From contig JANWJR010000137.1 in the NCBI GenBank assembly GCA_025451835.1, positions 1 to 64,000 on the forward strand: a stretch of 64,000 bases of DNA, written 5' to 3'. The translations under genes were made by a program, and so were the position numbers. Shown piece after piece: positions 13,484 through 20,187 of this stretch; the first letter of the stretch is position 1; each line of letters starts with the position of its first letter. The notes below the pieces were generated by a model. That model was not told where the DNA came from. It made no database searches and saw only the letters and a program-made list of their open reading frames with translations. This stretch comes from Candidatus Acidiferrales bacterium. GTDB taxonomy: Bacteria > Acidobacteriota > Terriglobia > Acidiferrales > UBA7541.

Positions 13484-14524
13484 GTGGCGCGTTCCCGGAT
13501 ATTAGCCTTTGTCGTCTGGCTGCTTTTTTTTGCGGTTGCGAGCGCGTGCGCACAGCAAACCCTGCCGCGAATCCCGCCACCGCCGCCCGGCGTGACGCCG
13601 GGGCAGCAGAAGACCGCTCCTCCGATTCAAGTAACAACCGGCTTCGTGCATCTCGTCGCGACCGTCACCGACCGACGCCATAACTTCATCACCAATCTGG
13701 ATCAGGGCGACTTCAAAATTCTCGAGGATGGCGTGCCGCAGCAGATTAAGTATTTTGGCCGTGAAACGGATTTGCCGCTGCGCATCGCGCTGCTCCTGGA
13801 CACGTCCAACAGCATTCGTCAGCGCTTGCAATTCGAGCAGGACGCAGCCATCGATTTCCTCAACAGCGTGATTCGCCGCGGCTTGGACGATCGCGCTTTC
13901 TTGATGACCTTCGACAATGAACCCGAAGTGATCCAGGATTACACGGGCGACCTCGACCTGCTGACGAAGGCAATCCGCGACCAGCGTGCGGGAGGCGGTA
14001 CCGCGTTGAACGACGCCATCTGCATGGCTGCCGACAAGCTGGCAAAAGCTCCTATGCCCAAAGGACCTGGCCCGGAGGTCCGCAGGGTGCTCGTGGTGAT
14101 CAGCGACGGCGATGACAACTTGAGCGATCACGCCCTGAGCGACGCGATCGAAGCGGCCATTCGCGCCGAGGCGTCCATCTACGCGATCAGCACCAACACT
14201 GAATGGCTCACCACGGACACGGATTCGCCGCGCAAGTTTCATATCGAAGCTGGGGATAAGGTGCTCGAACAGTTTGCCGAGCAGAGCGGAGGACGCGTCT
14301 TCTATCCGTATCGCGTGGAAGATCTCGCGCAGTCATTCATGGATATCGGCGCCGAATTGCGCAGCCAGTATTTCTTCGCGTACGCGCCGACAAATTCCCA
14401 GATGAATGGGCAGTACCACAAAATCGAAGTCGATACCAATCGCAAAGGCCTGGTCGTTCGCACACGCAAGGGTTATTACGCTATTGCGCCCACTGCCGCG
14501 ACCCCTGTTCCCGCAAGCAAGTGA
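13484..14524 (+). CDS. VWFA-related protein, acidobacterial type (copy 1)
   Basis: Signal peptide, LLDTSNSI MIDAS-like motif and C-terminal QYFFAYAPTNSQMNGQYHKIEVDTNRKGLVVRTRKGYYA, typical of the TIGR03436-like family. Confidence 0.85.
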   Translation: MARSRILAFVVWLLFFAVASACAQQTLPRIPPPPPGVTPGQQKTAPPIQVTTGFVHLVATVTDRRHNFITNLDQGDFKILEDGVPQQIKYFGRETDLPLRIALLLDTSNSIRQRLQFEQDAAIDFLNSVIRRGLDDRAFLMTFDNEPEVIQDYTGDLDLLTKAIRDQRAGGGTALNDAICMAADKLAKAPMPKGPGPEVRRVLVVISDGDDNLSDHALSDAIEAAIRAEASIYAISTNTEWLTTDTDSPRKFHIEAGDKVLEQFAEQSGGRVFYPYRVEDLAQSFMDIGAELRSQYFFAYAPTNSQMNGQYHKIEVDTNRKGLVVRTRKGYYAIAPTAATPVPASK

Positions 14525-14581
14525 ACGCCGCGGCAAAGTCGCGAATTAGCTCCGGGATCCCAGCGAAAGACAATCTGTAGT

Positions 14582-15643
14582 TCAATGTCTCGGGGCGTAG
14601 TAGCCCCTGCGCGCGAGAACTTTCACGTCCGGCTGATCGACCTTCACCTGAATCTTCCGGAACGTGCCGTCGCGCTTCGTGTTTGTCGGGTAATAGCCAA
14701 GCACGTACTGCGAGCGCAGCTCTTCGGAAATTTGGTCGAAGGCTTTTTCAAGCGAGTCTTCGTTCCGAACATCGATTACGCGTCCGCCGGTTTGCTCGGC
14801 CATTCTATTGGCCACGCCCCCGCCGTATCCCATGGTTGCACTGCGGTCGCGGATCAGCAGCACATGGATGACGGCATCGGCGCGTTGCGCGGCTTCGATG
14901 GCGTCTTGTTCGCTCATCTTGCTGCCGGTATCCTCGGCGTCCGTCAGCAGAATCAGCGCCTTGCGGCCCGCTTCGCTGGCCATCTGATCGTGGCAGGCGA
15001 GATAAATCGCATCGTAAAGATCGGTTCCACCGTTGCTGGATGCGATCGTGCCAGGCGTGCCGCCAATGCCGCTGGCGTCCACATTGATCGTGGCGCGGTC
15101 GATGGCCTGGTCAAGAACCGAGGTATCCTCGGTGAAGTCAGCGAGAAGATTCACATCCGTGTCGAAGCCGATGACCATCGCTTCGTCCCTCTTCCGCATC
15201 ACTTCCTTGAGAAAGCGCGCTGCCGCGCTCTTCTCGGCGTCGAGGATGTGGTACATGCTGTAGCTCGTGTCCATCAGCATGCCGAGCGTGATGGGCATGT
15301 CCACTTCCTTCGAAAAAAACGCAACCTTCTGATCTTGTCCGTCTTCAGAAATCTTGAAGTCATCTTTCGTCAGGTTGTTGACGATCGCGTGGTGCTTATC
15401 GCGAACGGTGGCGAACACATTGACAATGGATACCTGCACTTGCAAGGGGCGTTGCTCTTGCGGCGGAGATTGCTGCTCCTGTTGCCCTTGTACCGCCCTG
15501 GGTGATTCATTTGCGGCTGAAGGCGAGCGCATCGGTCCGGCCTGCTGCACGGGATTCGTGGCGGCCCGTGCCGCGGATTTGGTGGCCGGAATCGTGCCGA
15601 GAGCGAGTGTCAGAATGCCTGCGGCGATAGTGATTGGTCGCAT
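14582..15643 (-). CDS. VWFA-related protein, acidobacterial type (copy 2)
   Basis: ORF 14582-16147; likely start at 15643 (MRPITIAAGILTLALGTIPA, signal peptide). LMDTSYSM and YVLGYYPTNTKRDGTFRKIQVKVDQPDVKVLARRGYYAP. Confidence 0.85.
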   Translation of the reverse strand: MRPITIAAGILTLALGTIPATKSAARAATNPVQQAGPMRSPSAANESPRAVQGQQEQQSPPQEQRPLQVQVSIVNVFATVRDKHHAIVNNLTKDDFKISEDGQDQKVAFFSKEVDMPITLGMLMDTSYSMYHILDAEKSAAARFLKEVMRKRDEAMVIGFDTDVNLLADFTEDTSVLDQAIDRATINVDASGIGGTPGTIASSNGGTDLYDAIYLACHDQMASEAGRKALILLTDAEDTGSKMSEQDAIEAAQRADAVIHVLLIRDRSATMGYGGGVANRMAEQTGGRVIDVRNEDSLEKAFDQISEELRSQYVLGYYPTNTKRDGTFRKIQVKVDQPDVKVLARRGYYAPRH

Positions 15644-15785
15644 TGTATAATCTCCGGGAAGTGAAACCAGTCCGATTGTTACGATGCAGCGGACGCGCCG
15701 CCGGATGTTCGCTGCTAGTCTATCGCGCGCCGGCAAGGTTCCTGACGGCAAGAGTGATGGCCCCGGAAGAAAGCGAGAAACTCCA

Positions 15786-16916
15786 ATGACGCGATTTTTC
15801 CAAGCGCTCGCAGCGACGCTAGTTCTTATCGCGCCCTGTGGTCTCCGCGCGCAGATCAAGCCGCAACAGCCGGCGCGGCCACAAACGACACCGGCGGTTA
15901 CTGCACCGCCAGAGAGATCAACGCCGCCTCCGCCGACTGCCGCAACGGCGCAAAGGCAAAACCCCGCGCCCATCCGCGTTCGCACCGATCTGGTGCTCGT
16001 GCCAGCCACGGTGAAAGACCACAATGGAGAGTTGGTGGGCGATCTCCAGCGCGATGACTTTCGGATATTGTGTGATGGCGTGCAACAGCAAATCCTCCAA
16101 TTTTCGGCAGACCCGGTTCCCCTATCGGCCGTCGTTATCGTTGACAACGATTTATCGGAAAAAGAGGCCGCTCAGGTGCAGAAAAGTCTACGAGCGGTTG
16201 CCGCCGCGTTTGGTCAAAACGACGAAGTGGCGCTGCTGACTTACGACGAATTTCCGCACATTGTATCCAACTTTTCCTTCAACAACGACACGCTCTTCAC
16301 CCAACTCAAGCGCCTCGAACTCGATTCGCATTCCCAGACGGTGCTCGCGGATCCCACCACGGCCGGTCCCATGATCAACGGCCAACCGCTACCCAACGGG
16401 CAAGGCGTGCCGCTGCATGGCTCGGGACGTTATGCGAACAACAACGATATTGATGACGCGCTGTACGCAGGCGCGCAGATGCTGAAAGCCCGCGAACGCG
16501 AGCGCCGCAAGATCATTTTTCTGATTACGGATGGAGCCGACTCGCGCCACGATCAGCATGGCGTCGACGAAACTCTGCACGCTCTGCTCGCCGCGGATAT
16601 TTCCGTGTATGCGATCTCCGTCAGCCATTCCGTTCCGATCGGCAAATCTCTTCTCCAGCACGGAGAGAGCAAAGTCGACAAGTACGCGAGACAAACCGGC
16701 GGCGATACTTTCTTCGCATCCAAGGACGCTGATCTCGGGCGATTGTATCCGGAAGTCACCGAGCAGGCGCGGAACCAATACACGCTCGCGTTCTCTCCCA
16801 AAGATCTCAATAAGACGCGCGATTATCACACCATCGAAGTGCGCGTGGAGCGTCCGGACCTTAATATTTTCACGCGGCAAGGGTTTTACCAGAGCGCGGT
16901 GGGCTCCGCGCGTTAA
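15786..16916 (+). CDS. VWFA-related protein, acidobacterial type (copy 3, altered MIDAS)
   Basis: Likely ATG at 15786 (MTRFFQALAATLVLIAPCGLRAQ, signal peptide); same architecture as copies 1 and 2 but VDNDLSE replaces DTSxS. Confidence 0.85.
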   Translation: MTRFFQALAATLVLIAPCGLRAQIKPQQPARPQTTPAVTAPPERSTPPPPTAATAQRQNPAPIRVRTDLVLVPATVKDHNGELVGDLQRDDFRILCDGVQQQILQFSADPVPLSAVVIVDNDLSEKEAAQVQKSLRAVAAAFGQNDEVALLTYDEFPHIVSNFSFNNDTLFTQLKRLELDSHSQTVLADPTTAGPMINGQPLPNGQGVPLHGSGRYANNNDIDDALYAGAQMLKARERERRKIIFLITDGADSRHDQHGVDETLHALLAADISVYAISVSHSVPIGKSLLQHGESKVDKYARQTGGDTFFASKDADLGRLYPEVTEQARNQYTLAFSPKDLNKTRDYHTIEVRVERPDLNIFTRQGFYQSAVGSAR

Positions 16917-16965: not shown

Positions 16966-17156
16966 TTGACTTCATACATCGCGGCATTTATAGATAAACC
17001 AGGCGGGCGAATGATGCGTGAAAACTTTGCGCGGGTTCGCCAGCGGGAGAAAGCTGCACAGTAGTTCATGCGCGTAGCGACTAAGGCTCCGAAGGAGCCG
17101 GAGGCAAGAATGAACGGGACCTTCCCGACGCTTGGGAGCGTCCCGTTTTTTATTTT
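16966..17156 (+). ncRNA. Candidate small RNA cassette (promoter, stem-loops, intrinsic terminator)
   Basis: TTGACT (16966-16971), 17 nt spacer, TATAGA (16989-16994); stem GTTCAT/ATGAAC (17064-17069/17110-17115) enclosing GGCTCC-GAA-GGAGCC (17085-17099); terminator stem plus T-run at 17114-17156. No convincing ORF inside. Confidence 0.5.
17113..17156 (+). terminator. Rho-independent terminator
   Basis: ACGGGAC...GTCCCGT inverted repeat (17114-17120 / 17140-17146) followed by TTTTTTATTTT. No A-run on the 5' side, so it acts on the + strand. Confidence 0.85.
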
Positions 17157-17172
17157 GCCCTGATCGCGTACG

Positions 17173-20100
17173 TCATTTATCCGTTGGTCCACCGTTCGAA
17201 CCCGGGCGAATTGGGATCAGTTGCTCGTGAGCGGGGCAAAGCGGCTTGAAGTCGCAATATTTGCAGCCGTAGCCCGCCTTGGGAGCGAATTCGCCCGCGC
17301 GAATCGAATCGGCCACTTCGGCAATTCTCTGCTTTGCCTCCGTCAGAGCCTTTGCATCCCGCGTTGCGGCCACGGCTTCGTTGGTGGTCAGGTTGTAGAA
17401 GATGAGTCTCGCCGGCTCCAGCTCGAGAATTTCCCGCGCCGCCAGCGCATACGCGCTCAACTGAAGATCTGTCGCCGCGTTCTTCGCATCTTTTGCTTTT
17501 CCGGTTTTGTAATCCACGATCTCGACTTCGTTCTTGCTAATCCGGTTCACCTGGTCGATGCGGCCCGTGAGGATCACGTCGTGTTCCAGCGGCAATTCGA
17601 ATCGCTTCTCCTGGAAAAGGACGTCGGCCGGTGCGGCGCTATAAGTTCGATGGAAGGCTTCGAGCTGTTCGCGGCCGGCCTCGCGATATTCCTCCTCGTG
17701 GAATTCGTCGCCGTATCCCGCGGATTGCCATTCACGATCGTAAATCAAGAAAAGTTCTTCGAGCGGCAAGCTCCCGCGCTTGTGAACTTCGCTGACAAAT
17801 TCCTTGATGGTCGTATGCATCACGCTGCCAAACGTCGCACCGGCGTGGGGTCCGGGACGCAGTCCCCACCCGTATTGAAAGAGGTATCGCATCGGGCAGC
17901 GGTCGTATGCGCCGATCGCCGAGGGGCTTAGTTGCAATGGCTCCGGGCGCGGCGGGTGAAACGCCTTGGCCCAGACGGCAACCTGCGAATACGCTCGCGC
18001 GTTGTCGCCGGTTCCTGAACCGAGCAGTTGCACGGGATCCGCTGATTCCGGCGCAGGCCCAGCCGCCTCGACGAGAGCAGGCACGGAGACCTTCGGTCCG
18101 AATTGGTCAGCATCGAAGGTCTTGATCTTCGGATTCATCAAAAAATCATCGAGGAAGAGAGAAGGTTTTTTACGCTTGTTGATGACGGCGGAGAGCGTCA
18201 GATTCTGCCGCGCGCGCGTGAGGGCCACGTAGAAGAGCCGGCGTTCCTCCTGGATTTGAAAATCGCCCGAGGGCTGCTCTTCCTTCATCAGCTCGGGAGG
18301 AAATTCAAACACCGGAGCCCGCGGCTTCGAGGGGAAATCGCTTTTCGAAAGCCGCAGGATAAACACGTGGGGAAATTCGAGCCCTTTCGCTGAATGTACG
18401 GTCATCAATTGTACGGCATCACCCGGAGGTTCTTCTTCGAGGCAAATGTCTCCGCCCGCTTCGTTGAAATAGTGGATATATTCCAGAAAATCGCGAAGAC
18501 GCGTGCCTTCGCTCTTCTTCTCCCAATCGCGGACGAATTGCACGAAGCGTTCCAGATAATGGCGGTCGGCCTCATAGGGAAGCGGCGCGACTTCGAGCGA
18601 TCCGATCAATTCGTTGAGGAGCTCGCTCGCGGACATTTTCCTCGCGCTTTTTCGCAAGCGTTCGAGCATCGAGGCCAGTTCTGCAAGGCGCACTCCCTCG
18701 CGCGTGAACGGAGCTTCGTGCCGCGCCGTTACGATCTCATCGGATAACGGCCGGCGGTGATTCTTCGCCGCCCGTTCGGCTAGGCGCACCAGATCGCGCG
18801 GTTCGAGACCCCAGTATGGGGCTGCGAGCACGCGCGCGCAGGCGACGTTGTCTCCCGGTTCGCCGATCAGGCGGAGATAGGCGAGCAGGTCTCGCACTAG
18901 CGTGCTCGTAAGAATCGAAAGCTTCTTGATGACAAAAGGAATCGACCGCCGCCGAAGCGCTTCCACGAGGTGCGTGCGGTGGGTGTGTTTGCGATAGAGG
19001 ACTGCCACGCTGCGCCAGGGCGCGCCTGCTTCGTGCAGGCGTTCGACCTCCGAGACGACCCAGCAAGCCTCCTCCTCCGGCGCGCCGAATTCGACGACGC
19101 GAACCTTTTCGCCTTCGCGATTCTCCGTGGTCAGCGCCTTCGGCGGCAGCAGCGGCGACCGCTCGTTGTGCGAGATCACTTCCCCGGCCACGCGCAGTAT
19201 CTTTCGGGTCGAGCGGTAATTCCGCGATAGCGAAACGAGAAATTGCTCCGCGGCGGGACCAAGCCTTGGCTCGCGCACGCCGCAAAATCGTTGCAAGAAA
19301 ATTGTGAAGCTGCCGAATGACGCGCCTCGGAAGCGGTAGATTGCCTGGTCGTCGTCTCCGACCGCGACGATGTTGCCGCGCTCCCCCGCCAGCAGCCACA
19401 ACAGTTCGAGCTGCGCGATGTTGGTGTCCTGAAACTCGTCCACCAGGATGTAGCGGAACTGCTCCCGCAGTCGCCGGAGCAATTCGCCCTCGGTGCGGAG
19501 CAATTCCACCGCGTGCATGAGTTGCACGCCGAACGTAAAGAGATTGCGTTCGCGCAGCAATCGGTCGCTGACGCGATAGACGCGCGCCAATTCCTCCTGC
19601 CGCGCGAGCGCGTCTTCCGCGATCGCCAGAGCGTCCGGTTCGAGCGATTTCCTTCGCGCTTCGTGCTTCCGGCGCAACTCCTTGGCGTAACGGTCGTAGT
19701 CGTCGGGCGTCACCAGTTCGTCCTGGCAGCGCGAAAAGAATTTCACGAAATCATTCAGAAACTCGCCGGGGTCTTGCAGTCGCCTGAAGACTTTCAGATC
19801 CAGTTCGGCGATATTGCGACGCAGAAGAATCCAGTGATCGATGTCTTCGAGCGCCTGTATCTCGGGATTCGCCGCGCGGAGCACTTTTTCGAGACAGAAT
19901 TTATGGAAGGTGCTCAGCCACACGCCTTCGGCGCGCTCGCCCATCGCTTTCACGACGCGATACTTCATCTCACCGGCGGCCTTGTCCGTGAACGTGAGGC
20001 CAAGAATGTTTTCGCCGGAAAGATCGGGGTCGGCCTCGAGCAGCGTGCGGATGCGCTCCGTGATGACGCGCGTTTTGCCTGTCCCGGCTCCGGCCACCAC

Positions 20101-20187
20101 AAGCAATGGACCATCGCGGTGCGCGACGGCGATGCGCTGTTCAGCGTTCAGCCCGGGAGCGTCTCTCGTAATTGATTTCGGATTCAT
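17173..20187 (-). CDS. UvrD/Rep-family helicase with C-terminal PD-(D/E)XK nuclease and Cys-rich Fe-S-like motif
   Basis: 1004 aa; LLVVAGAGTGKTRVITERI (Walker A), VDEFQDTN, GDDDQAIYRFRGA; C-terminal GRIDQV...VEIVDYKTGKAK and GCKYCDFKPLCP. Confidence 0.92.
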   Translation of the reverse strand: MNPKSITRDAPGLNAEQRIAVAHRDGPLLVVAGAGTGKTRVITERIRTLLEADPDLSGENILGLTFTDKAAGEMKYRVVKAMGERAEGVWLSTFHKFCLEKVLRAANPEIQALEDIDHWILLRRNIAELDLKVFRRLQDPGEFLNDFVKFFSRCQDELVTPDDYDRYAKELRRKHEARRKSLEPDALAIAEDALARQEELARVYRVSDRLLRERNLFTFGVQLMHAVELLRTEGELLRRLREQFRYILVDEFQDTNIAQLELLWLLAGERGNIVAVGDDDQAIYRFRGASFGSFTIFLQRFCGVREPRLGPAAEQFLVSLSRNYRSTRKILRVAGEVISHNERSPLLPPKALTTENREGEKVRVVEFGAPEEEACWVVSEVERLHEAGAPWRSVAVLYRKHTHRTHLVEALRRRSIPFVIKKLSILTSTLVRDLLAYLRLIGEPGDNVACARVLAAPYWGLEPRDLVRLAERAAKNHRRPLSDEIVTARHEAPFTREGVRLAELASMLERLRKSARKMSASELLNELIGSLEVAPLPYEADRHYLERFVQFVRDWEKKSEGTRLRDFLEYIHYFNEAGGDICLEEEPPGDAVQLMTVHSAKGLEFPHVFILRLSKSDFPSKPRAPVFEFPPELMKEEQPSGDFQIQEERRLFYVALTRARQNLTLSAVINKRKKPSLFLDDFLMNPKIKTFDADQFGPKVSVPALVEAAGPAPESADPVQLLGSGTGDNARAYSQVAVWAKAFHPPRPEPLQLSPSAIGAYDRCPMRYLFQYGWGLRPGPHAGATFGSVMHTTIKEFVSEVHKRGSLPLEELFLIYDREWQSAGYGDEFHEEEYREAGREQLEAFHRTYSAAPADVLFQEKRFELPLEHDVILTGRIDQVNRISKNEVEIVDYKTGKAKDAKNAATDLQLSAYALAAREILELEPARLIFYNLTTNEAVAATRDAKALTEAKQRIAEVADSIRAGEFAPKAGYGCKYCDFKPLCPAHEQLIPIRPGSNGGPTDK

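Follow-up and report, generated by a model that had tools for sequence, protein, structure and literature searches.

For the Acidobacteria, a 2022 review lists four annotated small RNAs or small-RNA families (PMC9029176), and two noncoding motifs of these bacteria, Acido-1 (RF01686) and Acido-Lenti-1 (RF01687), were reported in the Weinberg 2010 survey (PMC2864571). The element described here resembles these motifs in being structured, apparently noncoding and acidobacterial, but their covariance models match neither the window (the whole 64,000-nucleotide stretch of DNA that we analysed) nor 20 homologous loci. It also shares several traits with the Hfq-class, trans-acting and intrinsically terminated small RNAs, namely its own sigma-70-type promoter, hairpins with a constant loop word, a GC-rich terminator with a U-rich tail, a single intergenic copy and an Hfq gene in the same genome; in contrast to these, it has no sequence relation to any Rfam family, and its targets and Hfq binding are putative. 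A third comparison is with dual-function small RNAs such as SgrS/SgrT and VcdRP (PMC4021124, PMC8672173), where the likeness lies in a small stand-alone RNA to which some lineages add a short open reading frame (ORF) and a ribosome-binding site. The difference is that the ORF is here 13-18 codons long and lysine-rich, occurs in three genera only and is missing from the window copy, and that the regulator itself is a predicted one. Since at least 10% of small RNAs contain coding ORFs by one study's estimate (PMC5521070), the kind is known, and what is new, by the evidence of the searched libraries, is the family.

Read together with its relatives, the sequence between positions 16966 and 17156 comprises a predicted promoter followed by about 155 nt of folded RNA, which closes with an intrinsic terminator (Table 1). 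The original prediction had named the elements TTGACT-17 nt-TATAGA, GGCGAA/TTCGCC, GGCTCC-GAA-GGAGCC and a GC-rich stem followed by a T-run, and all are present as described. Transcription from the sigma-70-type promoter would yield an RNA with P1, the word GGGAGA, P2 (whose loop and 3' arm hold the word AUGCGCG), P3 and the terminator with its U-rich tail, in this order. A mechanical scan of the window lists the terminator on the + strand. The promoter is absent from the corresponding list because that scan requires a final T in the -10 hexamer, which TATAGA lacks; the promoter call therefore rests on conservation. We consider it very probable that this is a real, conserved small-RNA gene, and give roughly 60% to the fuller reading, in which a stand-alone gene of an undescribed family, belonging to one Candidatus Acidiferrales family of uncultured soil Acidobacteria, would encode an RNA that acts in trans by pairing.

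Table 1. Features of the element and its neighbours (positions in the window).
Feature	Positions	Strand	Remarks
Upstream neighbour, VWA-domain protein (NCBIfam TIGR03436, acidobact_VWFA)	15684..16916	+	conserved neighbour in relatives
-35 hexamer TTGACT	16966..16971	+	relatives: TTGACTTCA in g1, TTGACA/TTGACT elsewhere
-10 hexamer TATAGA	16989..16994	+	spacer of 17 nt, as in almost every relative; G001 has 18
Predicted transcript, ~155 nt	17001..17156	+	putative start 7 nt past the -10, from promoter and terminator
P1, 5' hairpin	17006..17041	+	basal stem GGCGAA/UUCGCC, arms 17006-17011 / 17036-17041; GCGA/UCGC in relatives; from fold and covariation
Linker word GGGAGA	17045..17050	+	near-invariant in g1; GGGGAGA or GAGGGGAGA in other genera
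P2 hairpin GCUGC/GUAGC	17053..17078	+	arms 17053-17057 / 17074-17078; GUUCC/GGAAC in relatives
P2 loop word GUUCAUGCGCG	17064..17074	+	proposed seed
AUGCGCG within the P2 loop word	17068-17074	+	found in almost every copy, whatever the genus; one g4 copy reads UUGCGCG
P3, GGCUCC-GAA-GGAGCC	17085..17099	+	other noncoding genera: same place, different sequence
Intrinsic terminator	17115..17156	+	CGGGAC...GTCCCG, GC-rich stem 17115-17145, then T6-A-T4 to 17156
Downstream neighbour, convergent, UvrD-like helicase with PDDEXK_1 nuclease domain (AddA/RecB-like)	17173..20187	-	conserved neighbour in relatives

A few short words of the region recall the glycine aptamer, and on one reading the element would be a decayed glycine riboswitch or belong to some other Rfam family. 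Searches against Rfam 15 gave no match at gathering score in the whole window, and none in 20 homologous loci searched up to E = 1. The element region, searched up to E = 10, gave five chance-level matches, the best with E 1.1, and none of them came near its gathering score. The candidates Acido-1, Acido-Lenti-1 and 6S are accordingly rejected. The faint glycine resemblance noted at the outset did not hold up: Rfam offers no match, and a riboswitch would lack a gene to regulate, as the next one downstream is indeed on the minus strand, as had been pointed out. We regard the resemblance as coincidence. Membership of a known family is thus refuted within the limits of Rfam 15.

Within the window genus (g1), whose records are metagenome-assembled genomes, a homologous element was found in 12 of 20 genomes by DNA search, pattern and covariance model. 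The count, window included, is 12 to 13 depending on how two partial copies in G006 are handled, and at E < 1e-7 the covariance model gives 12. When 60 related genomes were searched by DNA, matches came from this genus only, and a consensus-like query and a pattern search added further copies there. Covariance-model E-values are 2.7e-13 for the window copy, which is among the most diverged of the genus, and down to 3.5e-21 for others, these copies having also built the model. All parts of the unit recur in the g1 copies: after the promoter comes a 5' hairpin with GCGA/UCGC as its closing stem, then the core GGGAGAAAGUUCCACUGUAGUUCAUGCGCGGAACCACUCC, and then a hairpin of the form GGGCUUC..GAAGCC ahead of the terminator. 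When the elements of g1, g10 and g13 are taken together, the hexamer positions of the promoter are about 86% identical versus 48% for the spacer. The two G006 copies (L007 on C330, L011 on C120) are slightly different from each other, lie at contig ends and each adjoin only one of the two usual neighbours; they probably reflect a strain mixture, not a duplication.

More diverged homologues occur in seven further genera (g2, g3, g4, g7, g8, g10 and g13), and about 30 copies were read in all. A covariance-model search of 399 genomes of the class returned strong matches only in the window genus, along with a few borderline ones; those outside the family (L071, L072, L073) have neither promoter nor terminator and look like chance. 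Borderline model matches in g3 lie at the equivalent place, carry a promoter and a terminator and were also recovered by synteny. We also took the helicase gene as a landmark in 29 other genomes and read the adjoining strand. The seven genera share one anatomy: a promoter with 17-nt spacer, a 5' hairpin, GGGGAGA, AUGCGCG at a distance of 13-20 nt, a hairpin or an ORF, and a terminator. The words GGGAGA and AUGCGCG hardly vary from one genus to the next, and with the window genus eight genera have their own promoter, TTGAC(A/T)-17-TATAGA or similar. Complete copies end in a terminator stem and T-run whose sequence differs between genera, with stem energies in relatives of about -14 to -34 kcal/mol. 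A gapped pattern of promoter, GGGRA and AUGCGCG, run over 89 genomes, matched at the locus in seven genera, once per genome, versus a single match for the reversed-pattern control; three off-locus matches (G076, one of two in G098, and G109) look like chance. The independent transcript of about 150 nt originally proposed is strongly supported as a prediction, because eight genera keep promoter, folded body and terminator together, even though the flanking DNA and the sequence of the terminator change.

The predicted structure is likewise conserved in part. The sequence from 17000 to 17156 folds at -65.7 kcal/mol (z = -3.35, with 0 of 200 shuffles as good), much of which is due to the terminator; without it, z is -2.45 for the window and on average a modest -1.3 over 29 copies. 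The basal stem of P1 is 91.8% paired over 17 sequences from two genera (g1 and g3) with seven double-change cells, for pairs chosen by eye and counts uncorrected for relatedness, and only one of 500 shuffles, and none of the slid controls, attained its covariation score. In P2, two pairs carry compensatory changes on both sides in the window copy as compared with its GUUCC/GGAAC relatives. With a core that barely varies, the covariation rests on a small number of double changes. Two of the stems first drawn fell away, since relatives do not keep the pairing of CAGC/GCTG (17042-17056) or of GTTCAT/ATGAAC (17064-17069 / 17110-17115); what is conserved is GCUGC/GUAGC. An enclosing GGAG/CUCC pairing appears in most g1 folds and is missing from the window copy.

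The element is present in one copy per genome and, where traced, lies between the VWFA gene and the convergent UvrD/PDDEXK helicase gene. Upstream in the window stand three adjacent acidobact_VWFA (TIGR03436) genes, at 13484-14524 (+), within 14582-16147 (minus) and at 15684-16916 (+), together spanning 13484-16916. Such a fixed neighbourhood, with the terminator adjoining the helicase stop codon, would suit a cis element, a 3' untranslated region or leader left from, or serving, one of the two genes. We find this very improbable, as the element has its own terminator and, past the end of the VWFA gene's coding sequence, its own conserved promoter; moreover, the helicase gene is convergent, and some relatives possess both neighbours without the element. 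This last arrangement occurs in 7 of the 20 genomes of the window genus (G002, G018, G009, G004, G012, G015 and G019; loci L079-L083, L099 and L108), which fall on more than one tree branch, and the element is therefore dispensable. On the helicase tree, whose deep branches are poorly resolved, the element is spread across the family's deep branches and has been lost several times, more than once inside the window genus.

Food for debate is whether the RNA encodes a peptide. In g13, g10 and g2, an AGGAG(A) ribosome-binding site is followed by AUGCGCG-AUG and a lysine-rich ORF of 13-18 codons, whose peptides read MKKVPKKEKKKGK in g13, MAKKAKKAAK(T/S)AKKGSK(C/S) in g10 and MKKATKKAKKGSKKGC and MKKATKKAPKKGKKG in g2. 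The two g13 species differ at five ORF positions, every one a third codon position and every change synonymous (chance about 1e-4 to 1e-3). Neither of the two changed codons of the g10 pair is synonymous, so this pair adds conservation and no coding signal of its own, and the g2 pair, with three of seven synonymous, is uninformative alone. Across these three genera the ORF with its Shine-Dalgarno sequence thus appears to be under coding selection, the signal coming from the g13 pair. One g2 species has AUG-UAG and lacks the lysine-rich ORF, as do g1, g3, g4, g7 and g8. In the helicase tree, the ORF form occurs in three deep lineages apart from one another, at a depth where the branching is poorly resolved; low-complexity lysine runs could have arisen more than once, and coding could be the older function. 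A pattern search for the lysine ORF elsewhere in the class found none outside the locus, with a pattern that was not sensitive, since it also missed the g2 and g13 copies. The ORF loci (L088/L126, L096/L125, L090/L113, L097/L127, L092/L131 and L130) have AUGCGCG-AUG as an unusual start context, and their ORFs are likely too short for annotation. In one g13 copy (L126 in G112), around AUCUCCGAGGGGAGAUCCCAGCUAGGAGAU, AUCUCC can, by eye, pair with either GGGGAGAU or the Shine-Dalgarno stretch GGAGAU, and this choice of partners would give the lysine ORF a simple on/off switch.

The g13, g10 and g2 copies, with AGGAGA shortly before AUGCGCG-AUG, could suggest that the element is a small mRNA in every lineage, which in the window genus would translate a peptide from the AUG of AUGCGCG itself (MRGTTPGF in most copies, MRVATKAP in the window). 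Several g1 differences in this frame are synonymous. The variable bases nevertheless coincide with unpaired positions between helices, and GGGAG ends 18 nt before the AUG with the 5' arm of P2 in between, leaving no Shine-Dalgarno sequence at usable spacing. The frame also ranges from seven codons to read-through of the terminator, and the start is not universal, with UUGCGCG in one g4 copy and AUG-UAG in the g2 species above. We rejected MRGTTPGF as a peptide of the window genus for its ragged ends and missing Shine-Dalgarno sequence, and translation in every lineage seems improbable. The window copy reads AUGCGCGUAGC here, with no second AUG and no Shine-Dalgarno sequence, and all frames crossing the region on either strand, long shadow ORFs included, are interrupted in relatives, in agreement with the initial remark that the region has no good ORF. 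On these grounds we take the window copy to be the noncoding form; in g13, g10 and g2 the RNA may double as a small mRNA or dual-function RNA.

How would the noncoding RNA act? Constant words in a changing scaffold suggest that contacts are made by those words. An Hfq gene is present in the genome (PF17209, 31.5 bits versus a curated cut-off of 27), no CsrA gene (PF02599) was found there at 79.5% completeness, and the RNA would end in a U-rich tail; for these reasons we favour a trans-acting, base-pairing regulator. Its constant words, and (GUUC)AUGCGCG in particular, would pair with target mRNAs, probably helped by Hfq. For the pairing mechanism taken by itself we see an even chance. A target search with CGCGCATGAAC, the 11-base exact complement of the g1 loop word, over all genomes of the genus gave no shared set of start-codon targets; this was the only query, a seed as short as AUGCGCG being beyond the method. 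Matches, fetched and checked in 12 genomes, lie mostly inside coding sequence. The one that recurs at a plausible start codon, in two genomes, is at the start of a protein that we take from its N-terminus to be murC-like, and is probably due to chance.

The main rival to base-pairing is a structured RNA that binds a protein or the ribosome through GGGGAGA and AUGCGCG, as 6S, CsrB or decoy RNAs do, instead of pairing with mRNA. Two short near-constant words in a variable scaffold would suit such an RNA, as would the empty-handed target search, and the anti-Shine-Dalgarno end of 16S rRNA is a conceivable pairing partner for GGGGAG. There is no 6S match in Rfam, however, and the missing CsrA gene, within the stated completeness, led us to reject a CsrB/RsmZ-like sponge; overall, we judge this rival unlikely.

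Returning to the base-pairing RNA and its coding relatives, we tentatively propose, at somewhat less than even odds, that the family has switched between a coding state, as a small mRNA or dual-function RNA whose product is a lysine-rich peptide of 13-18 residues, and a purely noncoding one. The noncoding state would have kept the promoter, P1, GGGAGA, AUGCGCG and the terminator, and lost the ORF with its ribosome-binding site. If true, this would be a traceable passage from a coding RNA to a noncoding regulator, or the reverse, and the locus offers a natural comparison of one small transcript in its coding and its noncoding form. Few bacteria are commoner in soil than the Acidobacteria, and the element would add to them a new RNA family at a fixed locus.
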